Source: Synechococcales cyanobacterium M55_K2018_004 | GTDB lineage: Bacteria; Cyanobacteriota; Cyanobacteriia; Elainellales; Elainellaceae | Direction: 5' to 3' | DNA: 48,099 bases | Assembly: GCA_015295905.1 (NCBI GenBank) | Contig: DVEB01000283.1 | Location: 1-48,099, forward strand | Shown: one piece after another, positions 9,973 to 41,464 of the stretch | Layout: the number at the start of each line of letters is the position of its first letter | Position numbering within the stretch: position 1 is the stretch's first letter | Made by a program: the position numbers and the translations under genes | The notes under the pieces: generated by a model | Seen by the model: only the letters and a program-made list of their open reading frames with translations | What the model was told of the DNA's origin: nothing | Databases searched by the model: none

Positions 9973-12900
9973 TCAGGTGACATAGATCAGGTCGGGGGTG
10001 ATGCCGAAGCGGAGATATTCGTTGAGGCTGGCCTTGAGGTTGTCTTCTCGTTGGGGAAACTTGAGGGAATTGAAGACTCCCATTTCTGAGCCGTTTTCGG
10101 CTCCAGTGCGGACTGTGGTAACGGTGGCGCTGCTGAGTTGGGCATAGCCCGGTTGCCCATAGCGCTCGTCGGTGAAGCGGGGCTGCATCTGGTTGAGCAG
10201 GAGCAGCATATCATCCACTCGGTTGAGGCCGGTGTTGAGCGTAGCCCAGGTCTTGCCGCTGTTCTGACTGATGAACAAGCTACCGATGCGGGTGCCCGCA
10301 AGCAGGGAAGCCTTGCCGTTGACAGGACTGCTTAGCACCAGACAGGTGATATCCGTTTGGGTGAGGCCACTGCCTGCAACCTGCCAGGAGCAGCCATTGC
10401 TGCTGGAACGGAAGATACTGCCACCAGTGCTGCCCACATACAGGGTGGTGCGTTGGTAGGGAGTGTTGGGGGGGAGGTCGGGGTCGAAGGGTTGATCGAT
10501 GCGGAGTTCGTCAGCAGTGGAAATCGTCATAATGCGGCGGGTCTGTCCGGCGGCGGTGAGGCTGTCTCCCGGAGCAAATTCCCGTTGGAAGTCGGTACTG
10601 TTCCCTCTGACGCTGGTGTAGTCACTGGCGATCGCCCCTTTCCCTGGCACTGTTTCCCCCACGATTGCTGTGGTGTTGGGGTTCGTCAACCCGGCACGGG
10701 CAGGTTCCCAGCGCAGTCCCCCGTCTGTCGAACGAAACACTCCACCCCCCAGCGTGGCCGCAAACAGGTGTCTAGTGGTTGCACTCAAGCATAGTCCAGT
10801 GATGTAGGGATGGGTCAGCCCCGTCTGGCAGATGTTGACATCGCTAGGGTCGCCCCCTCTCCAGGTGTTGCCATTGTCGCTAGAGCGGAACACACCCCCA
10901 CCCCACGTGCCAACGAAGCAGTCCCCGCTGTGGGGATCGGTAGCGATCGCCCGCACATCGCGATTGGTCAGTCCCTCGTTCATGGCCTGCCAGGTCTGTC
11001 CTCCGTTGCTGGAACGGAACACCCCATTCCCAGCAGTGCCCATCCACAAAACAGAGGTCTGGAAGGGAGTAGGGGTTGTGATGTCGGGGGAGAAAGGTTC
11101 GGCAACGGTGAGACTGCCATTGTCGGGCGCAATTGCAGTGATGCGGCGGGTCTGTCCGGCAATTGTCAGACATTCACCCACTGCGAGTTCCACCGCAAAG
11201 AGGGTGCCTTGTCCGGTGACGGTGGTGCCCTTGGTGGTGGCCCTGCCTGTACCGAGGCGCTGTTGCAGGGCTAGGGCGGTGATGTCGGTGTTGCGGCGGT
11301 TCTCACTGTTGGGGATGCGCGGCTGTGGAACGGGTTCCCAACAGGTGCGCCGGATGCGGAAGGCGGTGGCGATCGCGTCTTGGTCAAAGGCGGGGCTGAC
11401 CTGAAGCAGGTTATCGGCAGTGATGGCAATGACCGTGCGAGACTGACCGGCCAGCAGGATTTCGTCACCAGGGCTGAGTTGTTGCAAGAAGCGGGTGTTG
11501 CACCCCGTCAGCGTGGTGCGATCGCGGCTGGTGCTGAGGCGTCCCTGCCCTGGGGTCGTTTGGGTATTGTGCAGGAGCAGGAACTCCTTGCCGGCAAAGC
11601 TTTGGGCAAAGGGGGCGTTGACCTCTAGCTCAAGGCCAGAACGGACTTGCGTAATGGTGCGGCGATCGCCCTCCACAATCAGCGTTTTTCCCACGTCCGC
11701 TGGCGTAAATTTGGTGCCACAGCCCACGACAATCGCCCCGCCAGCCGTAGGTTGTGTCGTACTCACCTGCCCGCTGCCTTCCATGAGGAGATGGGTGACG
11801 CGGTAGAGGGCGCCGCCCGTGGTGCCTGCCAACACTGCCACGGTCTGAAACGCGCTCTGGGGGGGCAGGTCGGTCAAGGGCTGGTCGAGTTGCAGTTGAG
11901 TGTTAGAGGGAATGGCCTGAATAGTGCGCACTTGCCCCTGAACGGCGATCGCATCCCCCACCTGCAATTCCTCCAGAAACCGAGTGTGCGTGCCGTTGAT
12001 GGTGCCGATGGGATCACTAGCGGCAGCAGGCGAAATTGTCCCCATTCCCGGCAGGCTAAAGGCCAGTAACGCTGTGACAGCAGCATTGGGCAGGCCCGTC
12101 GGCACGGGCGCCCAAGTTTGACTAGCGGCAATCAACCGATGACTGCCCTGGCCCGCGGTGCCTACCCAGGTTTGCTGAGTGATGGGGTTGCTGGTGAGGC
12201 TAGTGATGGCGACGGGCAGGGTGCCGATCTGCTCGATCAGGGTGAGGTCGGGCTGGCAGCGGTAGCGAGGAGGCGTGCGCGATCCCTGTGGGACAAAACA
12301 GAAACGCAAACAGCCTATCTGCTGCCGTTGGGTGGTCACCTTGTCGGTAAATAAACTGTTGCTGGCTTCCAGGGTGCGGACGAGGCTGGCCCCGAGGATG
12401 GTGCTGGTGGTGATGTCTGCGTCGGTGCCAGGAGCAGTGAGAGCGGGGGGAATGGGCAAGGAGGATGAGGGGGGTAGGGGGGAGTCGAGGATGGAGTCTG
12501 TGAGGCTGAGGTGGGGGACAGAGTCGGCTAGGGCGATCGCGCCGCTAATGCTGCGAACGAGGGAGAGATGCAGGCGAGAGTTATCTGCCCCTAGGTCAAT
12601 CACGGGGGGATCGGGGTAGCAGCGGGGATCGAGAGGTGCATCATCTTCGTCTTCGTCAGTCGGTAAGGGGGGTGGCGGTGCCCAGCGGGACAGAAAGCGG
12701 TGCAGGCCCTCCAGCAGGGTGGAGCACTGCTCGCCCCAGATCTCAGTGATGCGTCCAAGCCGCACTTGGAGCGGCAGGTTGTTGGCCGTGAGGCCGACCC
12801 GTAACATCCGTTGCAACAACGTCAGGCTGTACATCAACAGGGCTAAGAAGGTAACGTCGTCGGGTTGGGCATTGGTGATGGGAAGTTCCGCCCGTTCAAC

Positions 12901-15003
12901 GCGCAGTGTGTGACCAGGGACGAGGGTGCTGTGGGCGATCGCCAATCGTTGCAAGTTGCCGGGACGCACCGTCAGATTGCCCTCCAGCAAAAGGCCCTCC
13001 AGCGTGAACTCGCCGCCATCCTCAGTGGCAGGGGAGGCGGTGCCGCGCAGGGTGAGGTGGCCCAGCAGGTGGGGGCGATCGCCATCGGCAGCCACCAAGT
13101 ACAGGGGCTGCGCTGCCGGAATGCGGAGGAATAGATCGCCGCTGTAGGTCTGATTGCTCTGGAGTTCGATCAGGCCACCTGCTGCATCGCGAATCATACC
13201 CAGCGTGGGAGGCTGCTCTCCCTGAGCGGGTTGTAAAAAAAGGAAGAATACCTGGTTACGGTCAGCCGCTAGTGAGAGGGTGCCGCCACTAGGGAGGGCG
13301 ATCGCTTCCCCTCTGGCATTAACCGCCAGACCGGGGGAAACCGTTATTAACGCCTCTTGCTGGTTGACTGCCACCGCCAGACCGCTCAACACACCGGGCT
13401 GAAACCCTTGACGGACAGCGTTATCCAGCCGCTGCACCTGACCACTACTGTTGAGTTCTAAGCGTGCCAGCACAAAGTAGGGGCGATCGGGAGATGCCGT
13501 CGCAGGGAGCACGTCAATGTGGAGGCAGGTGGGGTCATGCTCGGCAGGACTCAGGATCAGCATCACTGCCTGACTCCGATAGCGGCCCAGGTAAATGCGG
13601 CGGGAATGCCCTAGCGTCAGCAGGTTGCCGCTGGCATCAATGCCGCTGCCAGCGGTGACTTGAGCCTCCAAATCACCACACTCTGCGAAGACGTTTAGCC
13701 CTGAAACAATGCCGGGATGGAAGGGGGGGAAAAGGCGCAATCGGGACGGGGAGGGCAGGGGGGAAGTGGCGTCTGTGGTGAAGCCGCTGCCTGCGAGGAT
13801 GGAGATTGAGCCATCGTTGCGACAGGCAACGTAACTAAGGGGAATGCTGATAAGGTCGTAGCAGGCTTGCCAGTGGCGGGCAAACTGATTCCACTCGCGG
13901 ATGGCCTGCGGCAGGGAGGGAGAGGCGTGGGGTGACCTGACTTTCCAGACGAGGTAGGTGCTGGCATCGAGGCTTTCTAGGACGGTGTTGCCAGTGCGAC
14001 TGTAGGGGCCACCGCCCACATCGTCGCTGAAGCCGTAGGAGTAGTTAACTGTTACGTTTTGAGGTGGGTCTTCCGTCAGCACAGCCATGCGCCCTCGCTG
14101 CAAGTCCAGCGCTACTTTGGCCTGAGAGTCGTGATCCTTGGTCTGCCAGTCTGCCAGGTCTGCTAGGTGAATTTCGGCCCGCTTCAAGGGGGTGCCATCA
14201 AAGTAAATTTGGACGGGACGATCGGCTTCCTCCACAGCCTCTGACTCCCACAGGGAGGGACTGAGTTCTCCAGGGATGTGGACTTCCTGCGCCAGTTCGG
14301 TGATATCCGTCTCGGTCTGGGGGTTGTTGAACAGGGGCGCGTCGTAGCCCAGTGGGTTGAGGGTGAAATAGCGTCCTTGGGGTGCGGCACTGAGGCCGGG
14401 GACGGCCCTGGGAGTGCCGCGTTCGATGGCATAGCTCTGCAGTCGCCACAGGTAAAGCGCCACGCCGTTGGGTGTGTAGGAGCCGCGTTGCTGGGGATTG
14501 CTGCGGATTTCGGGGGTAAAGGCCCCTGTGGTGCGGAAGGGAATGGGGATGGTGTTCTGCTGGGACTGTTGTCGCAGATTGACCGTGCTGCTCTGGGGAC
14601 GCAGGTGGCTGAGGTGTTGGGTGGTGGCGACAAAGGACTGGGCTTCGACGGCTCGCACCCCCCAGCCGGTAATGTCCCGGCCAATCTGTTCCAAAATGGC
14701 GGTGCTGCCCTTGCGCTGACGGTAGGCCAGGGTGTTGGCGACGTAGGTGCGGCGCTCCTGGCGATCGCGGTGAGCTGTCGCTTCGTTCAGGTCGCTCACT
14801 GCCAGCAGATCCCCGATGTAGGGCACTACCCAGCCATCGCAGGTCTCGATGAACCAGTTGTCGTATAGGTGCTCAATGTCGGCTTCCAGCAGTCGCAATT
14901 CCTGCTGGAGAATTTCCAGGAAGGCGCGTAACTGGCCGTCCTGCTCAGCATCGCGGATGCGGTAGATGGCGGGTAGCAGCTCGTACAGGGTGATCTGGCT
15001 CAT
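9973..15003 (-). CDS. eCIS gpI-type tail protein with inserted beta-propeller
   Basis: A 1676-aa protein. The ATG at 15003 (MSQITLYELLPAIYRIRDAE) overlaps the upstream stop as ATGA, so I prefer it to a longer frame. Residues 1-110 (ILQQELRLLEADIEHLYDNW, then WVVPYIGDLL) match phage P2 gpI-type tail proteins, which join wedge to fibres. A beta-rich middle ends in LEASNSLFTDKVTTQRQQIG, then RTPPRYRCQPDL at about 1000, and the last 80 residues (FTDERYGQPGYAQLS, GSEMGVF, LNEYLRFGI) are the ending I recall for eCIS homologues, where these two stretches lie close together. Here some 600 residues separate them. They hold five Asp-box repeats (FRSSNGGQTW type, about 1329, 1372, 1422, 1532, 1579) and five modules with T-x-F-x-x-E-L-x-x-G-D. 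The insertion suggests an extra binding platform on the baseplate. Confidence 0.88.
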   Translation of the reverse strand: MSQITLYELLPAIYRIRDAEQDGQLRAFLEILQQELRLLEADIEHLYDNWFIETCDGWVVPYIGDLLAVSDLNEATAHRDRQERRTYVANTLAYRQRKGSTAILEQIGRDITGWGVRAVEAQSFVATTQHLSHLRPQSSTVNLRQQSQQNTIPIPFRTTGAFTPEIRSNPQQRGSYTPNGVALYLWRLQSYAIERGTPRAVPGLSAAPQGRYFTLNPLGYDAPLFNNPQTETDITELAQEVHIPGELSPSLWESEAVEEADRPVQIYFDGTPLKRAEIHLADLADWQTKDHDSQAKVALDLQRGRMAVLTEDPPQNVTVNYSYGFSDDVGGGPYSRTGNTVLESLDASTYLVWKVRSPHASPSLPQAIREWNQFARHWQACYDLISIPLSYVACRNDGSISILAGSGFTTDATSPLPSPSRLRLFPPFHPGIVSGLNVFAECGDLEAQVTAGSGIDASGNLLTLGHSRRIYLGRYRSQAVMLILSPAEHDPTCLHIDVLPATASPDRPYFVLARLELNSSGQVQRLDNAVRQGFQPGVLSGLAVAVNQQEALITVSPGLAVNARGEAIALPSGGTLSLAADRNQVFFLFLQPAQGEQPPTLGMIRDAAGGLIELQSNQTYSGDLFLRIPAAQPLYLVAADGDRPHLLGHLTLRGTASPATEDGGEFTLEGLLLEGNLTVRPGNLQRLAIAHSTLVPGHTLRVERAELPITNAQPDDVTFLALLMYSLTLLQRMLRVGLTANNLPLQVRLGRITEIWGEQCSTLLEGLHRFLSRWAPPPPLPTDEDEDDAPLDPRCYPDPPVIDLGADNSRLHLSLVRSISGAIALADSVPHLSLTDSILDSPLPPSSSLPIPPALTAPGTDADITTSTILGASLVRTLEASNSLFTDKVTTQRQQIGCLRFCFVPQGSRTPPRYRCQPDLTLIEQIGTLPVAITSLTSNPITQQTWVGTAGQGSHRLIAASQTWAPVPTGLPNAAVTALLAFSLPGMGTISPAAASDPIGTINGTHTRFLEELQVGDAIAVQGQVRTIQAIPSNTQLQLDQPLTDLPPQSAFQTVAVLAGTTGGALYRVTHLLMEGSGQVSTTQPTAGGAIVVGCGTKFTPADVGKTLIVEGDRRTITQVRSGLELEVNAPFAQSFAGKEFLLLHNTQTTPGQGRLSTSRDRTTLTGCNTRFLQQLSPGDEILLAGQSRTVIAITADNLLQVSPAFDQDAIATAFRIRRTCWEPVPQPRIPNSENRRNTDITALALQQRLGTGRATTKGTTVTGQGTLFAVELAVGECLTIAGQTRRITAIAPDNGSLTVAEPFSPDITTPTPFQTSVLWMGTAGNGVFRSSNGGQTWQAMNEGLTNRDVRAIATDPHSGDCFVGTWGGGVFRSSDNGNTWRGGDPSDVNICQTGLTHPYITGLCLSATTRHLFAATLGGGVFRSTDGGLRWEPARAGLTNPNTTAIVGETVPGKGAIASDYTSVRGNSTDFQREFAPGDSLTAAGQTRRIMTISTADELRIDQPFDPDLPPNTPYQRTTLYVGSTGGSIFRSSSNGCSWQVAGSGLTQTDITCLVLSSPVNGKASLLAGTRIGSLFISQNSGKTWATLNTGLNRVDDMLLLLNQMQPRFTDERYGQPGYAQLSSATVTTVRTGAENGSEMGVFNSLKFPQREDNLKASLNEYLRFGITPDLIYVT

Positions 15004-18000
15004 AGACTGACCTCCGCCCTCAGGCCAATGCCTGCCGGGTTGATGAGAAGTAACTGGGCCGGCAGGATCTGTCGTTTGTCCACATCCCACCGGGCGGTCT
15101 GGGCCGGCAGCACAGCCTCTAGGCTGCGGGCGCGATCGCGGCGATACAGGGCATCTAAATCCACCGCCACCACGCCAGCCACTGCCTGCATCAGGGCGAT
15201 CGCCTCAGCAGAGGTGACCGCCTGCCCAAAGTGGCGCTGCTCAAAGGCAAACCTTGTGGTCAGCACTGCTTGGACCTGGGCCAGCACAGGTTCTGGCCGG
15301 TAGCGCGGGTCGATGAGCAAGCGTGCTTCCAGGTTAAACAGCAGGCGTTCGTAGGAATCCACTTGCACCTGCTGGATGGGGTCGTGAGCCTGGGCGATCG
15401 CCTGCACCAGGTTGGTGTATAGCACCGAGTCTGCTGGAACAACGCCCCCAGTGCTGGCCGCTACCGTAATGTGGACTGTCTGTACGCCGCCTGCTGACAC
15501 CACCGTTGCCCTGGCTTTACCGATGCCAGAGAAGGCGCGGGTAAAATCTTCGTAGTCTTGCAGGGAGACGATTCTGCCCAGCGTCCGCACCGTCAGGGGG
15601 GCACTGGTGCGAGCTTCGGTGATGCTTTCGGGGTCGGCAGCGCCACTGGTGGGGCGGGGATTGTTGACCTCTGAGATACCGAGGGGACGCACTCGCAACA
15701 GACTGAGGCGATCGCCCCCCATCAGTCCCGCCAGCCCCATGCCGCTGCGATAGGTGGCCCGCACGTTTTCCAGACCCGTCGGCAGGCGCATCCCGCTCAC
15801 CCCATCCCCGAAGATCACCGTCACTGTGCCATCCTGGGCACGACGGGTGATGTAGACCTGCTCGTCGGGGCCGTGGCCAAACAGTGAGTCCACCTCCTGC
15901 CACTGCACTTCGTTGACGCGCACCTCTAGCGTACTGATAGTGCCTTTGGGGGTGGTCGCTGCAACGTAGGTGAGGGGCTTTTTCCGCAGGACAAACGCCT
16001 GGTTGGGCTGGCTGCTGTCGCCGCTGCCCAGCACTTCGTCCGGCACCGTTTCGCCGTGGGTGGCCGGGACAATATTGGCGAAAATGCTCACCGTTGCTGG
16101 ATCGTAGCTGTTTTGCAAGGGAGCCTCTAGCGTCAGGATGGGCACCTGTTGGTCGATGGGAGGCAGCAGAATGGTGGCAGGTTCGCTGATGCTGGGGTCT
16201 TCAGCGATCGCCGCTTCTAGCACCACGTCCTGGGGTGTAGGGGTCAGCACCACCCCGACAAAACCGTCCCGGTCTTGCAAGCGCCAGCGTTGCTCCAGCG
16301 CTAGTTGGGGGTCGGGGTGACGAGGCAGGAGTGGCTGCGGGGGGGCCATCACAAACAGGCGATCGCCCGCCCGAATGGGAGCCGTCAGCAGCGCATCCTC
16401 CGAAATCAAAATGCCGATCCCCGCCGCCACCAAGCTACCCACAAATGGGATGATGGCGCGAAAATCGGTGTTCACCAGTCCTAGGGGGTTCAGTTGGGAG
16501 TCGAGGCTGGTGAGTCCCTGGTTAAAGGCGGCCCAGCGATCGCCCTGGTCAAGTGAGCGGAAGATCCCGGCTGTCTCGGTGCCAGCGTAAACTTGCAGGG
16601 TTCTGGGTTCCAAAACCAGACAGCGGATCGTCAGGTCGAGTGGTTGCACTGAGGCCGGTTTCCAGAGGGAACGGGTATTTTCAGCGTCGCGATCGGGCAA
16701 CAGGACGAAAATGCCACTCCCTGCAGTGCCCGCCAGCACACGCAGAATTTGGAACGGCGTGGGCGACTGTGCCAGTTCTAGGGGATTGGGAGCAGGGGGC
16801 AGAATCGCAGCATTCAACGCATCACTACCGTCATCCTGCACGTCAACGTCTTCTGGGACAGAACGGACTGGCTCAGGGCTGATTGCGTGATTGATCTGCA
16901 GAACGGTGTCGGAGACGATCGCCGTTACCTGACGAGTCACCCCTGCAATAATCAGGTCATCCCCAACGGCGAGTTCTTCTGTGAAGCGGGTGTTTTCCCC
17001 CAGAACCGTGGTGTTGGTGGCAATCACCGTGCCAGTCCCCGGACGGTGATAGGCAACCAGAGCCGTCACGTTGGGGTTGGTGAGTCCTCGGTTCAGGGGT
17101 TGCCAGCTCACCCCCCCATCGGTGGAACGGAACACCCCCCGATCGACGGTGCCCGCAAAGAGCGTCTGAGTCAGAACTGGCGATCGCACCCGGGCCAAGG
17201 TCTGCACATCTAGGGTTTCCAGCCCCGCCTGACTCCAGAGGTTGCCGCCATCGCGCGATCGCACAATCCCGCCGTTGCAGGTGGCGGCCAGCAGTTCTGT
17301 AGGCAGTGGCAGGAGCGATCGCACGTCCCGCGCCACTAAATTCCGGCTAGCATCCTGCCAGGTCTGACCATCCTCACTGCGGAAAATCCCATCAGGGGTA
17401 GCTGCAAACAGGTGTCCGGCCTGCACCGCCAAGGACTGAATGGAGCGGTTGGGGAGGCCATCGTTGATCGGTTCCCACACCTCCAAATTGGCCTGCTGCT
17501 TCAAGCGAAACACGCCCCCTCCAGCAGTCCCCGCAATCAACTGAGAACGATATACCGCGAGACAGGTGACCCCGGTGTGGGTGAGTCCGGCAGTGATATC
17601 CCTTGTCCCGCCACTGCTGGTGATGGGACTGGGGAAACGGTGCCACCGGTTTGGGTTCTGGGCATCATTCGGGTCATTTTGCAGACGCATGACGCCACCC
17701 ACATGCTGTACCACTGCCCGGATGCGCTGACCACTGACGATCACCTGTTGCTTGGGCAGCAGTTCAGGCACGTATTCACTTAGAAAGACCTGGTTGCGGG
17801 TGATGGGGTCGAAGAAGATATTGGCCTGTTGCGGGGCGATCGCCAGTGGGTCGGGGGCCAGTTCCAGAGATTCACTCTGCACCAGGAGGACTGTTTCACG
17901 CCGACGATAGTTTTCTGGGACAATGGCTTCTCTAAGTTGCAAGCGAGACACTTCACCCGTCAGCCCAAAATCGTTCACCTGGACGTTCTCAATAGTGTTA

Positions 18001-20471
18001 ACTTGACGCACTTGATGATGCACTCCATCCATCAACACTATCCAACTTTCGGGCAAGATTTTGGAATATTTATTATCTAACTCTAGATTTACTGGATCAA
18101 TCTTAAAATTGAACCATTCTTCGTCTTCCAGGATGGGTGGAGGCGACCCTGGATGAATACCAACTGCTGTTGCAGGAACTGCTTTAAACGAAACAAACTG
18201 AGTTCCTACCAGCATCTTTGTATGATCGTTGGATAGCCCAAAGGAAAGTCCTCCCCAGGGAATAATTTTCTGTATATTCTGCTGTGTTGTATCCTCATAC
18301 CGAAAAATTCCCTCATTTGTGGCTGCAAAAATATATTGTGGTGTATCTGTTCGATTCATCGTAACAATCGAGCGAATCACCCCTGTCAGAGCTGGGTCTG
18401 TGGTGTGAGCTGCCCAGGTTAGCGTAGGCGCACTCAGATCACAAACGTAAATTCCTCGTTGGGTGGCAGCAAACAATTTGTTGGAGACGATCGCCAGCGC
18501 ATTGACTCGCTTATCCTCAGGTAGTAATTCATTCGAGACTGCAAACCAGGCTTGCCCTCCATCATCGGAGCGAAAGACCCCTTGGTCGGTTGCCGCAAAC
18601 AATCGATTGCCGGTGAGATTTCTCAGCAGACCACGCACGACTTGATTAGTGAAGCCTCGCCGACTCCAGTTCTGCCCTTGGTCAGCCGTAAAGAACAGTC
18701 CATCATCCGTTCCAGCAAACAATAATGGTGTGTTGATCGCAAAGTCAAAGGGCAACGTACTGCTGACCGTTAGGGGTTGCGTTGAAGTTAGCGTAATAGG
18801 CGGATTAACCGTGATGCGGGCGGTATATTGAGAGGCTGCAATACCGATAATTGTGCGTGACACTCCGGCAATTCTGACCGATTGATTAACCGCAAACCGG
18901 GGTAGCACCGTATTGGCCCGAATCGTAATCTGGTTGCTTGAGGCTGCAGCCGTTGCGGTTAATCGATTGCCTGTGTCGAACGTGAACCCCTCTGGCCCAA
19001 AGGCGGGGGCAACTGTGAGCCGCACCTCAGAGGTGAATTCGACATTCGTAATGGTTGTAACGGTGGTTGTTTGACCACCCGCCGTCAAAAAGGAACCAAT
19101 CACCAGGATATCTGGAGGAAATCCTGTCCCTGAGATCTCAATTCTCCCATCGGCTAACAGGTTACCTGTCCCTAGGGACGTTAAGGGAGGAGCCGTTGAA
19201 AATGAGACCTGTAGGAGCGATCGCACCACCGTGTTGGGAATGCCTGTGTTGACGGTACGGACATTGCTTGTTCCCTGGTTTTCGACCCGCACTGTGCCCA
19301 GGTGGAGTGGTGTCCAACTTTCCCCGTCATCTTTGCTGCGAAAGACGCCGCCGTCCGCTGTGCCCACAAATAGATGTCCGCTGGTTGGCGCAACATAAAC
19401 CGTCTGAATATTGAGATTAGTTAGGCCCGCATTCACTGCTTGCCAACTCGTCCCAGCATCTTTAGAGCGAAACACGCCGTTGTTAAACCCAGCGAAGTAG
19501 TAACCAGAAGGGGCGATCGCCACACAGCGCACATCCGCACTAGGGAGGCCGGCATTCATCGATTGCAAGCTGGCACCATCATCCCCGGTAAACAATACTC
19601 CCCCTTGGGTGATCTGCCGGTTCTCAGCAGCGGCTTCCTGCTTCAGAGTGTCGGGCACATCCTGCCAGCGGGGGGCATTGAAGCCAAAAACCCGCGCCTG
19701 TTGACGGAAGGCCAGCAGGGTTGGTTTTTGGGGCAGATTGATCAGGGGAGTCAGGGGTTTCCAGGTGATGCGGGTGTGGTCAGCGGGGACCACAATCTCC
19801 AGGCTCTCGACCGTCAGCAGGGTGCGTTTCTCAATCTCCTGGCCATCACCATCCAGCAGCAGCAGCGTATCACCCACCTGCAATCGGGTATTCACCCCTT
19901 GCAACAAGAGTTCGCGGTGTTTGGGGTGAATCAACTGCGGGCGGGTGGGGCGTGGCTTCAGGGCGTTCCATTCCAGTCGGGCGATAAAGTCGGTGCTGGT
20001 CTCAAAGGTCTGGGGCAGTTCTTCCTTCTCGGGGATGCTCAGCACCGCCGTGCCCTTGGGGATGTTGACCCGCGTCGGGGAACCGGGAGCGTCATCCACC
20101 GTGAAGGCCAGCAGGGTACTGGCAGCGACTCCGGGGTTGAGTTCATAGCCCACCATGCGAGCTAGTTCCAGCACTGACCGCAACTCGGTGGCCGTGTTCA
20201 AAAAGCCTTCGTTGGCGATCCGTTCCTGATAAAACGTGAGCACATCCGCCAGCACGGCAACGCTGTCCAGCAGGGCGATCGCTGGGTCATTCCGGTCGCG
20301 GGTGGTGAGTTGGCGCAGCGTCACACCTTGGGGGTGGTTGGGGCTGGGAAAGGACTGCACTAGCCGCCGCAGCAACCGTTTGCGGATGCTGTTGAAATCG
20401 CCCAAGCGGTAGGCCAGCGCCGGCAGACCGGGGCGGTTGTAGTAGGGCTTCGGCGGGGGAATCTCAGTCAT
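15000..20471 (-). CDS. eCIS baseplate-J-like protein with two propeller insertions
   Basis: A 1823-aa protein of the putative baseplate assembly (gpJ-like) family, roughly twice the usual length. The scaffold comes in three pieces: residues 1-295 (ALLDSVAVLADVLTFYQERI, then NEGFLNTATELRSVLELARM), about 780-940 (NLELDNKYSKILPESWIVLM), and about 1370-1823 (VTVIFGDGVSGMRLPTG, then TLGRIVSLQDYEDFTRAFSG). Between them lie two inserts with eight Asp-box motifs, for example FRSKDAGTSW (about 334), FRSDDGGQAW (634), FRSEDGQTW (1030), FRSTDGGVSW (1113) and FRSLDQGDRW (1303). Such S-x-D-x-G-x-x-W repeats occur in sialidase-, Vps10- and Ycf48-like propellers. The gene starts in an ATGA overlap with the upstream J gene and ends in one with the gpI gene, so the three are probably translated together. 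It should form the wedge of the baseplate; the propeller role is unknown. Confidence 0.88.
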   Translation of the reverse strand: MTEIPPPKPYYNRPGLPALAYRLGDFNSIRKRLLRRLVQSFPSPNHPQGVTLRQLTTRDRNDPAIALLDSVAVLADVLTFYQERIANEGFLNTATELRSVLELARMVGYELNPGVAASTLLAFTVDDAPGSPTRVNIPKGTAVLSIPEKEELPQTFETSTDFIARLEWNALKPRPTRPQLIHPKHRELLLQGVNTRLQVGDTLLLLDGDGQEIEKRTLLTVESLEIVVPADHTRITWKPLTPLINLPQKPTLLAFRQQARVFGFNAPRWQDVPDTLKQEAAAENRQITQGGVLFTGDDGASLQSMNAGLPSADVRCVAIAPSGYYFAGFNNGVFRSKDAGTSWQAVNAGLTNLNIQTVYVAPTSGHLFVGTADGGVFRSKDDGESWTPLHLGTVRVENQGTSNVRTVNTGIPNTVVRSLLQVSFSTAPPLTSLGTGNLLADGRIEISGTGFPPDILVIGSFLTAGGQTTTVTTITNVEFTSEVRLTVAPAFGPEGFTFDTGNRLTATAAASSNQITIRANTVLPRFAVNQSVRIAGVSRTIIGIAASQYTARITVNPPITLTSTQPLTVSSTLPFDFAINTPLLFAGTDDGLFFTADQGQNWSRRGFTNQVVRGLLRNLTGNRLFAATDQGVFRSDDGGQAWFAVSNELLPEDKRVNALAIVSNKLFAATQRGIYVCDLSAPTLTWAAHTTDPALTGVIRSIVTMNRTDTPQYIFAATNEGIFRYEDTTQQNIQKIIPWGGLSFGLSNDHTKMLVGTQFVSFKAVPATAVGIHPGSPPPILEDEEWFNFKIDPVNLELDNKYSKILPESWIVLMDGVHHQVRQVNTIENVQVNDFGLTGEVSRLQLREAIVPENYRRRETVLLVQSESLELAPDPLAIAPQQANIFFDPITRNQVFLSEYVPELLPKQQVIVSGQRIRAVVQHVGGVMRLQNDPNDAQNPNRWHRFPSPITSSGGTRDITAGLTHTGVTCLAVYRSQLIAGTAGGGVFRLKQQANLEVWEPINDGLPNRSIQSLAVQAGHLFAATPDGIFRSEDGQTWQDASRNLVARDVRSLLPLPTELLAATCNGGIVRSRDGGNLWSQAGLETLDVQTLARVRSPVLTQTLFAGTVDRGVFRSTDGGVSWQPLNRGLTNPNVTALVAYHRPGTGTVIATNTTVLGENTRFTEELAVGDDLIIAGVTRQVTAIVSDTVLQINHAISPEPVRSVPEDVDVQDDGSDALNAAILPPAPNPLELAQSPTPFQILRVLAGTAGSGIFVLLPDRDAENTRSLWKPASVQPLDLTIRCLVLEPRTLQVYAGTETAGIFRSLDQGDRWAAFNQGLTSLDSQLNPLGLVNTDFRAIIPFVGSLVAAGIGILISEDALLTAPIRAGDRLFVMAPPQPLLPRHPDPQLALEQRWRLQDRDGFVGVVLTPTPQDVVLEAAIAEDPSISEPATILLPPIDQQVPILTLEAPLQNSYDPATVSIFANIVPATHGETVPDEVLGSGDSSQPNQAFVLRKKPLTYVAATTPKGTISTLEVRVNEVQWQEVDSLFGHGPDEQVYITRRAQDGTVTVIFGDGVSGMRLPTGLENVRATYRSGMGLAGLMGGDRLSLLRVRPLGISEVNNPRPTSGAADPESITEARTSAPLTVRTLGRIVSLQDYEDFTRAFSGIGKARATVVSAGGVQTVHITVAASTGGVVPADSVLYTNLVQAIAQAHDPIQQVQVDSYERLLFNLEARLLIDPRYRPEPVLAQVQAVLTTRFAFEQRHFGQAVTSAEAIALMQAVAGVVAVDLDALYRRDRARSLEAVLPAQTARWDVDKRQILPAQLLLINPAGIGLRAEVSL

Positions 20472-23011
20472 CGTCCGCCCTCCAGGTTAAACGTAATGCG
20501 GCCCTTTTCAGGGGCGCTGGGGTCGTTGTCGAGTTGGGCAATTTCCAACCGTCCGAAGCTGATCTGGCCGCGTTCCAGCGCCTCGTTGCTATCTAGCCCT
20601 AGTCGCTGAAAGCGCGTCACCACAACGGATTCCACACCAACCACCTGCATAGCAGTGGCGATCGCCCGACTCAGGTAAAGGGGTTGCCCAAAACTGAAAT
20701 TGTTGGGATGAAAGAAGCCCAGTTGCCCATTCTCTAAAACACCCTTGCTGAAGCTCTTCACCAGGGCATCCCTGACCTGAGCGCGGAAGTAATCGGGCAA
20801 CACCTGCACCTGAAAGGCTAGGTCCAGCGGCACAAAGCGGGGACTTTCGATCTCCAGATCGTGGCCAGTGAGGCGAAATCGTTCCAGGAAGGCGCGTAAC
20901 TCCCGCTTGAAGGCAGCATCAACGGGTAGACCGTCCTGCCGGTCTACTGTAATGAAAATGGTGTACCAGCTTCCTGTCCAGCGGCGCGTTGCCAGGGCTT
21001 TGGCCACCCCAGGAAAGCGCTGGGCAATGTCGGCGTAGTCGGCTTCGGTGACAGCCCGCTGTAGGGTTTTGAATTGCTGGGGGGCATACAACCGCACTTG
21101 GTCTAGTGGCTCAGGGTCAAGCCCACCCACAGCCGGGAGGGGATTGGCGATCGCACTGGGCCCGCTGAGGGCGTTGCGGAGGGTGGCGGCTAGGGTGGGG
21201 TCGGCTGTGTAGGCGTGGGCGATCGCCCCAGCTCCCACATTCCCAGCGGTGCCGTTGCCGACACGGTAGATTGCAGTGAACTGGTGGCCCGGCGTGGGTC
21301 TCCGTCCCTGCTCTCCATCGCCAAACCGTAGCATCACCCGTCCATCCTCCTGCGGCTCCACTACAAACTCGCGGGCAAAGCGACTGCTGTTCAACAGGTC
21401 TTTCTGGGGCTGCCAACGATGCGGTGGCAGGTTGGGGTCATTGCCCTGTTCCTCTAAGAGAATGGCCGGTTGAACCAGCAGCGAATTCATAGGATCCATG
21501 GGACTGGATGGCTCTAGTAACGCTTTAGCAGCGGCAAGGGTGGCATCAAACACCACAAATTTGCCCTGCGCTGTGCGGATCTTGCCCTGCTGAGTCAGTG
21601 GTCCCTCCGGTAAGCGGGGCCGGAATCGTTCGCCCACGGCTACTGTCCCTAAGTGCTGTTGCTCGGCAGCAACGATGGTGCGTCCGTGGTCAGCCAGAAG
21701 GATATTGCCCCGCGCTACGCTGAAATCGCTGAGGGGGCGATCGCCAATTCGCTTGGCAATCACCAGCGGGAAGGGGAGGGCATCGTCTGGGTGCCACTGG
21801 ATTTCGAGAATTTGCAGACCAAACAATGGGTCTTCCGTGGCGTTGACCTGCGTCAGGCGCACCAAGTGACGGTGGTTGCGATCGGCATCCAGGGGGTCGC
21901 CGCTGTCAGATCCCTTAACCTCCTCTAGCAGCAATACTATCCCCGGCTTCAGCAGCGAGGCCAGGGTGCCGTGGCGGTCGTCTAGGGTGGCGGCGGTGGT
22001 GCCGGCGGGCAGAGTGCAGGTGGCATCGCCCCAGGTGTAGAACCGCATCTCGTTGCAGGCAGGGAAGAAACGAGCAGCATGCAGCGGCTCAAACACAGGG
22101 AGATGGGTGGCGATCGCCGCTGCGTAGTCCTTTGGGGACAGCAGGGCAGGCAGTCCCGGCAGGCGGGTCAGGAACTGGATACCAGGGTTACCGGGAGTCG
22201 GTTGCGGCAGTGAAACGGCTTCACTCACCTGAAAACTCAGCCACACACGGGCATTGCGGCCATCGTTTAGGGTGTAATTCAACAATCGCGCATGACGACG
22301 CACAGAGGAACGCCGCCGCGCTGTTCCCAGATAGGCCTCTGTGGCCACTGCGTCCTGAAAGTAGCTGAGGTGGTCAGCAACGTAGGCCACCAGTTCCACC
22401 AGAAGGTTCCCCACATCAGCAGGGCTGCGTTCTGTCCAGGCGGGCATGGTGACGGCCAGCCGATCCAGCATCAGTTGTCGAAAGCTGGCGAAATCTTTGG
22501 CAAGATAGTCGATCGCCGGTGGAGCAGTTCCCGGCTCAGAGGTCGCCGTCGTAGCCTCACAGTCCACTTCGCTGGTCTCATGGCTGCGAAAGGTAAATTC
22601 CACCTGCGACAGTTGGTGGTCAAACCCTGGCGGCGGTTGATCTGGATTATCCTTGTCGATGGGAGAGCGCACCAGCCGCAGCAAGTAGGGCATTGCCTGA
22701 CCGGGGCGATCGAGCGTTAGGGTGAGGCGGTTGCCCCAGACGCTCACACTTTCGACCTCAACGGTCATGGGACTGACAACGGGCCTGCTGGCCGTTGGGA
22801 CTGGCGCAATTCGCAGGTTTTCAGCACTCAGCAGCGGTTCTTCGGGATTTTGTCGAAGCGGGTGGATAAAGTAGACCAGCAGAGTCTTGGGGTCTGCGGC
22901 AACCTCCAGGTAATCGATTCCATTCAGGCGGGGGAGGCCGTCCTGATCGCGGTAGTTTTGCACAGCCACACGGCGGCGCTCATTGGTGCAATGATGCTGA
23001 GTGCTAGACAT
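20468..23011 (-). CDS. eCIS baseplate J-like protein
   Basis: An 847-aa member of the gpJ-like baseplate assembly family, of normal size and without propeller repeats. I chose the ATG at 23011 (MSSTQHHCTNERRR), which overlaps the gp25 gene end by 8 nt; a frame 27 codons longer is open but its start lacks family-like sequence. Motifs include IDYLAKDFASFRQLMLDRLA (about 200), typical of the family, then NLLVELVAYVADHLSYFQDA, FGDGEQGRRPTPG, and a C-terminal GQISFGRLEIAQLD. In T4 and P2 terms it is the gp6/gpJ wedge component that links the hub ring to the periphery and triggers sheath contraction. Its stop overlaps the start of the next, propeller-bearing J-like gene. Confidence 0.92.
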   Translation of the reverse strand: MSSTQHHCTNERRRVAVQNYRDQDGLPRLNGIDYLEVAADPKTLLVYFIHPLRQNPEEPLLSAENLRIAPVPTASRPVVSPMTVEVESVSVWGNRLTLTLDRPGQAMPYLLRLVRSPIDKDNPDQPPPGFDHQLSQVEFTFRSHETSEVDCEATTATSEPGTAPPAIDYLAKDFASFRQLMLDRLAVTMPAWTERSPADVGNLLVELVAYVADHLSYFQDAVATEAYLGTARRRSSVRRHARLLNYTLNDGRNARVWLSFQVSEAVSLPQPTPGNPGIQFLTRLPGLPALLSPKDYAAAIATHLPVFEPLHAARFFPACNEMRFYTWGDATCTLPAGTTAATLDDRHGTLASLLKPGIVLLLEEVKGSDSGDPLDADRNHRHLVRLTQVNATEDPLFGLQILEIQWHPDDALPFPLVIAKRIGDRPLSDFSVARGNILLADHGRTIVAAEQQHLGTVAVGERFRPRLPEGPLTQQGKIRTAQGKFVVFDATLAAAKALLEPSSPMDPMNSLLVQPAILLEEQGNDPNLPPHRWQPQKDLLNSSRFAREFVVEPQEDGRVMLRFGDGEQGRRPTPGHQFTAIYRVGNGTAGNVGAGAIAHAYTADPTLAATLRNALSGPSAIANPLPAVGGLDPEPLDQVRLYAPQQFKTLQRAVTEADYADIAQRFPGVAKALATRRWTGSWYTIFITVDRQDGLPVDAAFKRELRAFLERFRLTGHDLEIESPRFVPLDLAFQVQVLPDYFRAQVRDALVKSFSKGVLENGQLGFFHPNNFSFGQPLYLSRAIATAMQVVGVESVVVTRFQRLGLDSNEALERGQISFGRLEIAQLDNDPSAPEKGRITFNLEGGR

Positions 23012-23360
23012 TTTGTGAGAGCTCCACCACCTGTCGTTGCTGGGTGCGTTTGACGATGTATTGGATGGTGATGGTGAGGCGAGACTCTTCACTTTCGACC
23101 TCCACCCCCTCGACGACCATCAATTCACCTAACCATTGCTCTAACGCTCCGGTAATTAAGAATTGAGTGGCTGCAGCCAGTTCTTCACGATTGGGTGCAA
23201 AGATGAGTTGCTGTACGCCGCTGCCAAAATCGGGGCGGTTCACTCGTTCGCCGGGAATGGTGAAAATCACCTGTTCAATCATCTGCCGAATGTGCAATTC
23301 ATCACTGGCATCGGCAGTCCGTCCCCGGCCATCGACCCGAAATGGGTATCCCACCTGCAT
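23004..23360 (-). CDS. eCIS gp25-like baseplate wedge protein
   Basis: A 118-aa protein of the GPW/gp25 family. I start it at ATG 23360 (MQVGYPFRVDGRGRTADAS), preceded by GGGGAT at good spacing; the longer frame to 23426 runs into the PAAR gene. IRQMIEQVIFTIPGERVNRP, then DFGSGVQQLIFAP, is the family signature (T4 gp25 has the same PGER...R-P-x-F-G arrangement). Gp25 seeds sheath assembly on the baseplate. The gene starts 2 bp after the PAAR stop and overlaps the J gene by 8 nt, so translation is probably coupled. Confidence 0.95.
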   Translation of the reverse strand: MQVGYPFRVDGRGRTADASDELHIRQMIEQVIFTIPGERVNRPDFGSGVQQLIFAPNREELAAATQFLITGALEQWLGELMVVEGVEVESEESRLTITIQYIVKRTQQRQVVELSQNV

Positions 23361-23362
23361 AG

Positions 23363-23686
23363 TCACATCCCCTTTACTCGCGGTTGAGCCAGTATCACGG
23401 TCAACGGTGTCCCCGTGGGCACACAAATGGCTTTACTGTCTTGCAGCAGGACGGGCAGCCCCATGACTTTCACCCGCAACGCCGCAACGATCCAGGGGGC
23501 ACTGACGCAGGGACCAACATTGGCCGGGGGCGGAGGGTTGGCGCACCCCGCAATGACGAAGGGTGGCCCCTGCGTGACGACGGGCACCCCCATGACGCGC
23601 ACCCGTGGATTGGGCAGAGTGGGCTTGGCCTGTCCTCCGTGGGCACAAATCACAGTCGATGTGGCGTTGAGTAGAAAACCTGGCAT
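23363..23686 (-). CDS. PAAR-like spike tip protein
   Basis: A 107-aa protein, MPGFLLNATSTVICAHGGQA at the start, with further beta repeats (RVRVMGVPVVTQGPPFVIAG and RVKVMGLPVLLQD). Its size, Cys/His content (C14, H16) and position right after the spike gene fit the PAAR-like tips of eCIS and T6SS, which cap the needle and bind a metal ion. Two halves of the protein look alike, as expected for a PAAR cone. It carries no effector extension, so cargo is not fused to the tip. Confidence 0.85.
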   Translation of the reverse strand: MPGFLLNATSTVICAHGGQAKPTLPNPRVRVMGVPVVTQGPPFVIAGCANPPPPANVGPCVSAPWIVAALRVKVMGLPVLLQDSKAICVPTGTPLTVILAQPRVKGM

Positions 23687-23737: not shown

Positions 23738-24538
23738 CTAAATCACCTCCAGGGCACCGTTGTTGACATTCACCGAAATGGGAGAAAGTATAATGCTGGC
23801 AGCCGTATTGCTGATATCCACCGTTGCCGGAGTCACCTTCAGATTGGCAACGGCAGCCCCTAACTCCACCCCACTCGCAGCAATCTTGACTGTGGCAGGG
23901 GGATACGTAATTTCAGTGCCACTCGTCGTTGCCAGCTTGAGGCTGGCTGGCAGTGCTTCCAGACTAATGCCAGTGAGCATGAGCTGGACAGAAACTGCCC
24001 CTTCTTGCAGTTCAATGTCTTGGAGTCGGAGTGTCACCCTGGAGGTCTCACCAATCTTGAGTTCAATCTCTGTTGGGGTCATCTTCACGGAGGTCAGTTC
24101 ACCAATTTTGAGTTGAATCCCCGTACTGTCAAACACCATTTTTTGCGGCAGGCCAGCGATCGCCGGAGCAGCACAATCGACCTGCAATTTACCCGCTCCA
24201 GGAATATCATCCAGCGTGATCTTGAAACTTTCGGTCTTCAACATTTTTGTCGTTGGTAGGGCCTGAGGACTAGCGGGGTTCTGCTTCAGGTTCCAGAAAC
24301 AACCGCTCCAGATGGGATAGTCTGGATCACCAGCTTCAAATTCCACCCACACATTGGCGTCCAGCGGCGGGACGGCAAACCAACCGACTCCATTGCCCGC
24401 GTAGGGAGTGCAAGGCATGGCCCAGTTCAGGCGGTCTGACCCATAGACCGAGGGAATAGACACCTGTAGGCGGCCCAGTTGCAAGGGGTCGAGGTTACTG
24501 GCAACCTTGCCCCGATATTTCCCGAAAAAACGACGCAT
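23738..24538 (-). CDS. eCIS spike protein, gpV/gp5-like OB fold and needle
   Basis: A 266-aa protein. Residues 1-90 (FGKYRGKVASNLDPLQLGRL, then VSIPSVYG, then PLDANVWVEFEAGDPDYPIW) form the OB-fold domain of the gpV/gp5/VgrG family. From about 110 to the end there are repeated short beta motifs (LKIGELTSVKMTPTEIELKI, then GETSRVTL) as expected for a triple-stranded needle. The lysozyme domain of T4 gp5 is absent, so the spike has no built-in wall hydrolase. No clear Shine-Dalgarno is seen at ATG 24538. It is separated from the hub gene by 566 bp, the largest gap in this arm. Confidence 0.92.
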   Translation of the reverse strand: MRRFFGKYRGKVASNLDPLQLGRLQVSIPSVYGSDRLNWAMPCTPYAGNGVGWFAVPPLDANVWVEFEAGDPDYPIWSGCFWNLKQNPASPQALPTTKMLKTESFKITLDDIPGAGKLQVDCAAPAIAGLPQKMVFDSTGIQLKIGELTSVKMTPTEIELKIGETSRVTLRLQDIELQEGAVSVQLMLTGISLEALPASLKLATTSGTEITYPPATVKIAASGVELGAAVANLKVTPATVDISNTAASIILSPISVNVNNGALEVI

Positions 24539-26796: not shown

Positions 26797-27450
26797 TCAG
26801 CGATTGATGTCTACCCCAGTGGGGCCAACTGGATTTGATGGAACACCGAGATTTGCCATTCGCTCTTTTTCGCGGTGGTACGACAGGAAGAGTTGCGCCC
26901 CCCGTTGTCCCCAAGGCAGATCATCGTAATTGAGTACCCGCAGACTCAGTGAAATCTTTGCCCGAATAGGATTGAGATTGACATCGTAGGCTTCTTCGGT
27001 GATGTTGAAATCCGTTAAGCGAACGGGTAGTACTCGCCTACGTCCCCACACCAAGAGGGTCATTGGAGCCTCTAACGGAATCACTTCGATCATGCCAAGC
27101 GCAGCATTCTGCATGTTCTGTGAGACTTGGCTGCTGGCAGGATAAATCAGTGTTTCCAGGGCAGAGAGTTGGGGATAAATGCCCAACTGCACACTGGTGC
27201 GATCAGCCTTTTCCAGGGGATCGGTGGCATCAATTTCGATATCGAGTTTGATGGTTTCAACCGGGGCACCCTTCAACCGCAGCGCTTCTGACCGAGCACC
27301 TGTGCCCTCAGTCGCCTGAGTCTGCAAGGTGCGTGACAAAGTTTCTGGATTGTATTGAAACGGAATTGTCCGCTCCACCCGACCTGACGCGGAATTGAGC
27401 GTTACCAGTGCACCTTTGAGCAGGCGAGGAGAAAGGGGAAAGCTGGTCAC
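26797..27450 (-). CDS. eCIS tube-end/adaptor protein (CIS tube protein N-domain)
   Basis: Likely 217 aa from a GTG at 27450 with an AGGGGG about 8 nt before it. An ATG at 27561 would add 37 basic residues but lacks a ribosome site. The sequence LLKGALVTLNSASGRVERTI, then PFQYNPETLSRTLQTQ, is the start I associate with the tube-adaptor (Afp7/Pvc7-like) family, which caps the inner tube at the baseplate. The C-terminal part (LRVLNYDDLPWGQRGAQLFL, then SYHREKERMANLG) is short, and the LysM-like part seems to be carried by the next gene. First gene of the minus arm. Confidence 0.82.
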   Translation of the reverse strand: MTSFPLSPRLLKGALVTLNSASGRVERTIPFQYNPETLSRTLQTQATEGTGARSEALRLKGAPVETIKLDIEIDATDPLEKADRTSVQLGIYPQLSALETLIYPASSQVSQNMQNAALGMIEVIPLEAPMTLLVWGRRRVLPVRLTDFNITEEAYDVNLNPIRAKISLSLRVLNYDDLPWGQRGAQLFLSYHREKERMANLGVPSNPVGPTGVDINR

Positions 27451-27664
27451 AGGCAATGCCCCCTGCAATGCAGAATGAAGTTGGTCGTAAAGTCTGAAAA
27501 TCGTCTTTTTCCTGAGTTTTGAGATCGTTTGGACGCGCAGTACCCGTCTAAATGATCTCATTTTCGATCTACGGCAAATGGCATGACACGCCTGAAACAG
27601 AGCGTATCCTCAATTGAATTGCTTTTTCAGGTTTGTTGCTGATTTGTGCAGAACCGTAATGATC

Positions 27665-36063: not shown

Positions 36064-36346
36064 TTTCTCCAACCTCCCAAGTCACTCGGATGCAATGTGC
36101 AGTGTCCCTTGCCCTCCCTATCTCCTTAGCATAAGAAACGTGATACTACCCATTCCAAACCCTAGGGCGATGAGTGAGATCGGGGGACGTTGCCTCTTTG
36201 TGGGAGACGTCGTCTCCTCCTCCCCTTCCATAAGATCCGTCGTGGGATTTTGCGGAAATAGGGAAAATTTTTTAGGTAATACCAAGTTTAGAGTTTGGAC
36301 TTGCGATTTTATAATGTCAAAACCTGACAGCGTAATCTGTTCAACA

Positions 36347-39832: not shown

Positions 39833-39916
39833 AACGTCATATCTTTGAAGTTTTAACAGCATCTAGTTTTGCGGTTTGTGCGGTTACGTTGCACTGTTGA
39901 TTCACAGGAGAATTTC

Positions 39917-41464
39917 ATGCCTATTGCTCCGACGTATCCCGGTGTTTATATTGAGGAAATTCCTAGTGGAGTTCGCAGCATTACCGGGGTAGCGACTTCC
40001 ATTACTGCCTTTATTGGTTCAGCACTCAAAGGCCCGCTAAATGACCCCACTCGGATTCAAAGCTTTGCAGACTTTGAGCGGGAGTTTGGCGGACTTTGGG
40101 AGCAAAGCACAATGAGCTATGCGGTTGAACACTACTTCCGGCATGGCGGCCAGGATGCCATTATTGTGCGGGTCTATAAAAAAGCGGGGGACGCCCAGAA
40201 TGAAGGGAAGTCCCAAATTTCCCTAGGCGCACTTACCCTGCAAGCGAGCAACCCAGGGGTCTGGGGGAATGCGTTGCAGGCTAAGGTAGACCACGAAACC
40301 AAAGATCAGAATAATACCACCCTGTTTAACCTGACCATCCGCCAGATGCGATCGCGCGGTTCTCAGGAAATTGTGGCCGTGGAAACCCTGCGCAACCTCT
40401 CAACAGCTGCCAACTCTCCCCGTTTCTACTTAAAGGTAATTGAACTGGAATCGAAACTGGTAGATGCCGTTGGCGCAACCCTGATGACTAGACCCGAAGC
40501 CAGCGCGAATTTTGTTGAATCGAACCAAACAGGCAATGATGGGGTAGCGATTACCGATACCGAAGTCAAGGGATCTGCTGGCAACCGCACGGGCATTTAC
40601 GCCTTAGACAAGGTGGAACTATTTAACTTGATGTGTATTCCACCGCTGGAACGAGGCACAGATGTCGGCACTGATACGCTGGGAGAGGCCGTCCGCTATT
40701 GTCAGCAACGACGGGCCATGTTGATTGTAGACCCCCCCGCTAAGTGGAAGGATGTTGCGGCTGCGGAGAAGGGGATCGACGAGTTGCGGGCCTCGCTGGG
40801 TAGTGAAGCTCTGGGACGCAATGCTGCTGTCTATTTTCCGCGCTTAAAGCTAGGGGATCCGCTGCAGGAAAACCGCACCGAAGAATTTGTCCCCTGTGGG
40901 GCGATCGCTGGAATTTATGCCCGCACCGATGCCAGTCGTGGCGTTTGGAAAGCACCCGCGGGAACCGAAGCGGGACTGATTGGAGTACGCGAACTGTCCT
41001 ACAAGATGACCGACCTGGAGAATGGTCGGCTGAATCCCAAAGGATTAAACTGCATTCGGTTATTCCGTGACTACGGCAATGTCGCTTGGGGCGCGCGCAC
41101 CGCTGCTGGATCTGATGCACTGGCCTCAGAGTGGAAGTATGTGCCGGTCCGCCGGACAGCACTGTTTATTGAAGAAAGCCTGTACCGGGGAACACAATGG
41201 GTTGTCTTTGAACCGAATGATGAACCGTTGTGGGCACAGATTCGGCTGAATGTTGGCGCATTTATGAACAACTTGTTCCGGCAGGGAGCCTTCCAGGGCA
41301 AAACGCCCCGCGAAGCCTATCTGGTGAAATGCGACAAAGAAACCACCACGCAGAACGACATTAATTTGGGAATTGTGAATATTCTGGTGGGATTTGCCCC
41401 ATTAAAACCCGCTGAATTCGTCATCATCAAAATTCAACAATTGGCCGGTCAGATTGAAACTTGA
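39917..41464 (+). CDS. eCIS contractile sheath protein
   Basis: A 515-aa tail sheath protein, the subunit of the outer cylinder whose contraction drives the inner tube. ATG 39917 (MPIAPTYPGVYIEEIPSGVR) follows AGGAG by 6 nt. The N-terminus PTYPGVYIEEIPSGVRSITG with AFIGSALKGPLNDP and the C-terminal domain (SLYRGTQWVVFEPNDEPLW, then FMNNLFRQGAFQG, then NLGIVNILVGFAPLKPAEFV) are characteristic of the family. The family's N- and C-terminal arms that lock neighbouring subunits are present. It is the first gene of the plus arm and the only sheath gene here. Confidence 0.97.
   Translation: MPIAPTYPGVYIEEIPSGVRSITGVATSITAFIGSALKGPLNDPTRIQSFADFEREFGGLWEQSTMSYAVEHYFRHGGQDAIIVRVYKKAGDAQNEGKSQISLGALTLQASNPGVWGNALQAKVDHETKDQNNTTLFNLTIRQMRSRGSQEIVAVETLRNLSTAANSPRFYLKVIELESKLVDAVGATLMTRPEASANFVESNQTGNDGVAITDTEVKGSAGNRTGIYALDKVELFNLMCIPPLERGTDVGTDTLGEAVRYCQQRRAMLIVDPPAKWKDVAAAEKGIDELRASLGSEALGRNAAVYFPRLKLGDPLQENRTEEFVPCGAIAGIYARTDASRGVWKAPAGTEAGLIGVRELSYKMTDLENGRLNPKGLNCIRLFRDYGNVAWGARTAAGSDALASEWKYVPVRRTALFIEESLYRGTQWVVFEPNDEPLWAQIRLNVGAFMNNLFRQGAFQGKTPREAYLVKCDKETTTQNDINLGIVNILVGFAPLKPAEFVIIKIQQLAGQIET

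Follow-up and report, generated by a model that had tools for sequence, protein, structure and literature searches.

Genes of the CIS cluster

The window, i.e. the whole stretch of 48,099 nucleotides analysed here, carries the gene cluster of a contractile injection system (CIS) located on one contig (C139) of a 5.01-Mb cyanobacterial genome. On the minus strand, from about 27.5 down to 5.7 kb, are found successively a member of the CIS tube protein family (26797..27561; PF19266), a Phage_base_V/VgrG-like spike protein (23738..24538; PF04717), a gp25-like sheath initiator (23004..23426; PF04965), two TIGR02243 proteins, a TIGR02242/gpI-like protein and a candidate S74 tail fibre. The genes encoding the tail sheath protein (39869..41464; PF17482) and an AAA ATPase lie on the plus strand, farther right. 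With the gp25, tube, spike and sheath genes and those of the AAA ATPase and the gpI-like protein, the window provides the genomic context of a CIS around its TIGR02243 proteins. A WG-repeat protein (PF14903, 301 bits) is also encoded at positions 34942-36072.

Three of these genes, all on the minus strand, encode wedge proteins. P0003 (20468..23092) is the first TIGR02243/gp6-like protein and contains no Asp box. P0001 (15000..20471, ATG start, 1823 aa) is the second one, J-like, and hosts two predicted propellers. P0002 (9973..15003) is the gpI/TIGR02242-like protein. The genes of P0003 and P0001, and those of P0001 and P0002, share ATGA overlaps resembling those of translationally coupled genes; on the basis of the latter overlap, the start of P0002 was placed at the probable ATG at 15003 (the GTG ORF reaches 15090). 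Downstream lies P0004 (5755..9903, minus strand), a DUF6519 protein with a C-terminal S74 chaperone, which is likely a tail fibre. In this fibre candidate, a motif of about 31 aa, SGTATNTGFxRIQPQDSxxVxFTANAGYxF, is repeated in tandem over residues about 740-960. Another unit of about 60 aa, GxG..VxGxxTxF..eLxxGDxIxxxxqxRxVxxIxsdxxLxvdxPF, recurs in P0004, P0002 and P0001 (5755-15090 and 15000-20471). In two of these three proteins it forms loops that leave the blades of a propeller, and it resembles the phage families phrog_1980 (tail fibre) and phrog_5838.

P0001 reaches 257.1 bits against TIGR02243 (putative baseplate assembly protein), well over the curated cut-off of 155.8, and this match is split into an N-terminal and a C-terminal stretch. 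P0001 thus belongs to the TIGR02243/gp6-like proteins of a CIS wedge, and two inserts interrupt it. Its N-terminal scaffold (residues 1-262; 19686..20471) covers TIGR02243 positions 24-108 and is present in all homologues. The middle scaffold domain (residues 788-912; 17736..18110), aligned in all homologues, separates the two inserts. The C-terminal J domain (residues 1438-1823; 15003..16160) covers TIGR02243 positions 340-655 and matches chain 9gtp_1K of the Streptomyces coelicolor CIS. The original prediction had described a J-like scaffold in three pieces, and rightly so, since insert-free relatives (879-905 aa) align on both sides of each insert. This alignment bounds insert 1 at about 265-788 and insert 2 at about 913-1370/1437, close to the ranges 296-780 and 945-1370 initially put forward.

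Relationships with known wedges extend to both TIGR02243 proteins: P0003 matches T4 gp6 and 9gtp, and a profile of the P0001 family matches T4 gp6, 9gtp and pyocin R2 Tri1a, placing both among gp6/Tri1 homologues. The wedges of T4 and pyocin R2 are built of two gp6-like copies and one partner. Likewise, in the wedges of the S. coelicolor CIS (PMC12237407) and of phage A-1(L) (PMC10966104), a single gp6-like protein is present twice, next to one partner. Judging from these homologies, the two gp6-like copies are here likely to be P0003 and P0001, which would form the wedge triplex together with the gpI/gp7-like P0002.

Predicted propellers within the wedge proteins

The inserts of P0001 had been credited with eight S-x-D-x-G-x-x-W motifs. 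Eight Asp boxes are indeed found in the two inserts; six of them are strict (336, 379, 635, 1072, 1116 and 1306) and the other two are variants (TADQGQNW at 595 and SEDGQTW at 1031-1032). They are distributed as four per insert and none in the scaffold. Sequence shuffles give a chance expectation of 0.006 strict and 0.07 relaxed boxes for P0001, to be compared with the 6 and 8 observed.

AlphaFold2 was run on residues 250-1440 of P0001 (16 sequences, mean pLDDT 67) and on insert 1 alone (14 sequences, pLDDT 65), that is with moderate model confidence. Isolated hairpins had been considered as the alternative outcome; the models show instead closed propellers in both inserts. The structural reference was 7bif, a designed 7-bladed protein, to which the model of insert 1 aligns over 265 residues (Z 24.4, rmsd 2.8) and that of insert 2 over 275 residues (Z 25.6, rmsd 3.0). 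Each insert also contains seven strand-A motifs of the LFAGT type. Inserts 1 and 2 are each predicted to fold as an independent 7-bladed propeller with a closed ring, in which closure appears, from the sequence, to involve an N-terminal GGV segment and the C-terminal strand. The Asp-box propellers initially proposed are therefore borne out by the models and the motif counts. A single propeller built from both inserts, as first imagined and as eight Asp boxes at four per insert could suggest for an eight-bladed ring, is hardly credible, because each insert closes as its own 7-blade propeller with its own seven strand-A motifs, and a sister pair of genomes (L042 and L051) has kept insert 2 in the absence of insert 1.

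Predicted propeller 1 spans residues 289-757 (18201..19607, minus strand; Asp boxes 336, 379, 595 and 635). Small beta units, about 150 aa in total and modelled with low confidence, are looped out of it at residues 425-580 (18732..19199). Predicted propeller 2 spans residues 924-1351 (16419..17702, minus strand; Asp boxes 1032, 1072, 1116 and 1306) and is followed by a small domain, GDxLxVxxPP..W.LxDxdGFxG (residues 1370-1437; 16161..16364).

An insert of the same type, absent from the original prediction, occurs in P0002 at residues about 960-1625 in the GTG numbering (10216..12213, minus strand). It holds seven further Asp boxes of the relaxed pattern, with interleaved small beta units, and seven strand-A motifs, two degenerate ones (TWVGT and CFVGT) being recognized by eye. 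These repeats suggest a third seven-bladed propeller. Up to three propellers per wedge, or 18 per particle, would result if each protein is present once. The three propellers score 72-111 bits against one another and 40-47 bits against five other cyanobacterial Asp-box proteins, and each of the three has its closest counterparts among the orthologues at its own position. With this small outgroup, such a pattern would fit a duplication within the cluster before the carrier clade diversified.

Distribution of the inserts and exchange at the insertion slots

Of the 163 relatives detected among 84,980 species genomes, the best 80 were examined. Among these 80, inserts with at least three Asp boxes were found in cyanobacteria only, which is a statement about this sample. 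They are absent from every non-cyanobacterial homologue examined and from several cyanobacterial ones. The 22 carriers, all cyanobacterial, form a single clade (99/100 support, one change) in a tree calculated from the J domain alone, with the insert columns excluded. They belong to the Nostocaceae, Rivulariaceae, Leptolyngbyaceae, Oscillatoriaceae, Aphanothecaceae and other families; the inserts are missing in cyanobacteria outside this clade, e.g. Elainella, Microseira and Brasilonema. A class-wide sample of 388 genomes contained again the two kinds, with and without inserts. In samples of two other phyla, 17 genomes gave strong matches and the longest ORFs checked had at most one Asp box. 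The inserts are thus not an integral part of every J protein, a point on which the initial reading depended. Length alone is no marker of the propellers, since long homologues from other groups or devoid of the inserts of this clade (L056, L082 and L146-L150) have at most one Asp box.

The enlargement of P0001 is accompanied by that of its neighbor. Wherever the gpI-like gene of a carrier locus is complete (18 of 18 loci), its product is 1241-1770 aa long and contains 2-6 Asp boxes; at the 58 other loci the product has 641-1155 aa and never more than one Asp box, and none of the 58 counts as Asp-box bearing. This co-occurrence is one of joint gain and retention, not of 18 independent events, because the carriers form one clade. 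No clade-specific accessory gene adjoining the wedge genes was detected by clustering.

A phage origin of the inserts was considered and rejected: 33 phage records and 21 viral contigs were matched, the listed phage matches lay in the J or the N-terminal scaffold, and the long ORFs of the viral loci had at most one Asp box. No full-length copy was present among the plasmid matches.

Several other loci display related features. Prochloraceae MO_167.B51 (L047:2474-11158) encodes a 2894-aa version in which both inserts reach about 1050 aa; its second insert contains 16 relaxed Asp boxes, which suggests duplicated propellers. In an Armatimonadetes CIS locus, seven Asp boxes are found in a distinct protein of 1191 aa (L095:14081-17656), the gene of which lies downstream of those for the wedge. 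The gp6-like wedge proteins of Calidithermus (L055 and L056) have several hundred extra N-terminal residues (740 ahead of the scaffold in L056) and no Asp box.

The site of insert 1 (slot 1) is a swap site. It is occupied by a PA14 domain (90-117 bits, cut-off 24) in a Bacteroidota (L111), an archaeon (L067), a Verrucomicrobiota (L097) and Azonexus (L113), by a long Ala-rich stretch in L082, and by a lone 60-aa beta unit in L031. The helical insert of L084, the position of which shifts between alignments, was excluded from the evidence. PA14 has probably been gained or lost more than once at this site, because its four carriers lie apart from one another on a quick tree. At the site of insert 2 (slot 2), insert-free homologues of several phyla possess the small domain GDxLxVxxPP...W.LxDxdGFxG without a propeller. 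Since other microbes put different, often sugar-binding, domains at the same spot, the propellers probably serve for sensing or gripping, and not for attachment to a membrane. PA14 domains and carbohydrate-binding modules (CBM) bind sugars in other proteins, which carries over to the wedge proteins by analogy at most.

Possible roles of the propellers and related systems

The chances are about even that the propellers bind something and thereby help to position or trigger the machine. They would be accessory modules for binding or docking, placed at two sites of the wedge where domains have been exchanged in evolution. The ligand would most likely be a glycan or a surface protein, either on the target or on the envelope or sheath of the cell itself; alternatively, the propellers may clasp the tail fibre. 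Contact with the ligand or the fibre could then orient the particle and gate the opening of the baseplate, as proposed for the CBM spike cage of AlgoCIS. The propellers need not be adhesins, because a separate S74 tail-fibre candidate exists.

Propellers are common structural scaffolds too. The main rival explanation, possible though distinctly less probable, is that they strengthen or widen the ring of wedges and provide sockets for the tail fibre, with no sensing of a ligand. In the Anabaena myophage A-1(L), an insertion domain of the wedge protein gp31 keeps the long tail fibre in place or fits into a cleft of the hub (PMC10966104), and the fibre-binding hotspot of AlgoCIS is the gp7-like part (PMC8894135). 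The co-occurrence of propellers in two wedge proteins would also fit a mutual contact. Against this explanation, the L042 and L051 genomes dispense with insert 1 and retain all else, and of the 65 loci that have no propellers, 52 possess a gene of the DUF6519 family, which shows that this candidate fibre does not need them.

Anchoring of the machine through its propellers to the thylakoid or another internal membrane, in the manner of the Anabaena tCIS, is rather improbable. It is favored by the extra domain of Anabaena Cis12 (aa 610-1100), which makes a wide connector to the thylakoid (PMC8894136), and by the fact that the host and all the carriers are cyanobacteria. The original prediction weakly suggested a membrane or protein docking role on account of similar repeats in Ycf48, a photosystem II assembly factor. 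However, P0001 scores 33.9 bits against the Ycf48 family NF010237, about one tenth of the cut-off of 326, and a true Ycf48 (507.8 bits) is encoded elsewhere in the same genome (C147) as a separate gene, unlike the propellers embedded in the wedge. Kinship with Ycf48 was rejected on these grounds, and the resemblance of the inserts to it is generic. By simple hydropathy of the window ORFs, none of the propeller proteins has a convincing transmembrane helix; a single peak occurs, in P0001 at residue 1339, and falls on the last blade of propeller 2. The membrane role is therefore without specific support; docking on a protein or a glycan is possible. In addition, no solved chain of the Anabaena CIS appeared among the PDB matches of the wedge proteins at E up to 1 or 10, an absence that is not a proof.

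An enzymatic function, in which glycosidase- or sialidase-like inserts would degrade the surface polysaccharide of the target, is very improbable. The NCBIfam glycosylhydrolase model F510_1955 matches five stretches and BNR enzymes are among the structural neighbors of the insert models; nevertheless, the 135.2 bits obtained are under the curated cut-off of 175, PF13088 gives 27 bits for a cut-off of 31.4, and Asp boxes are structural, not catalytic.

The binding role can be extended, more tentatively, to a class of cyanobacterial CIS in which some 18 seven-bladed propellers, three per wedge, would ring the baseplate as a multivalent firing sensor. The gp6-like slot might then be a general plug-in site at which lineages install different receptor modules, i.e. 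propellers, PA14 and possibly CBM cages. CIS specificity is usually credited to the tail fibres; here, large domains of a binding type sit in wedge proteins, at an insertion slot that is used repeatedly. Should they be sensors, part of the firing specificity could be read from the domain content of wedge proteins across phyla, the two-step firing model proposed for AlgoCIS would become testable in culturable cyanobacteria, and the relay from ligand contact to sheath contraction would be easier to explain.

Among the closest known systems is the class IId CIS of S. coelicolor, whose Cis11/Cis12 wedge (9GTP) gives a sequence match to the J region of P0001 (E 3.5e-11, single sequence) and likewise combines a gp6-like protein with Cis12. 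There, one cis11 gene is used twice, whereas two different gp6-like genes exist here; the 652-aa Cis11 chain has no Asp-box match region, in contrast to the inserts, together about 1000 aa, borne by one gp6-like protein in this cluster.

AlgoCIS offers another parallel. Its spike cage is formed by domain IV of Alg11 (residues 278-643), which consists of two CBMs and projects from the gp6-like protein; the gp7-like part of Alg12 is described as a hotspot of evolution and of fibre binding (PMC8894135). A secondary-receptor step before firing has been proposed (PMC13314943). As in P0001, a large insert of the binding type follows residue 270-280 or so of the gp6-like protein; it consists of two CBM folds in a cage rather than of propellers. 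By domain order and residue number only, the slot of the Alg11 cage could correspond to slot 1, put forward as a hypothesis because Alg11 is not alignable, profiles of solved structures giving no match to the P0001 family up to E 10.

The thylakoid-anchored CIS of Anabaena is also cyanobacterial, with enlarged wedge proteins; its reported anchors are the transmembrane helix of Cis13 and the extension of Cis12, and PMC8894136 names no propeller. Beta-propeller lectins do occur in the eCIS tail fibres of the eBAP3 group (PMC12923769), whereas here the propellers are within wedge proteins. In the literature searched, the coverage of which was partial, no report mentions BNR or seven-bladed propellers or PA14 in CIS wedge proteins.
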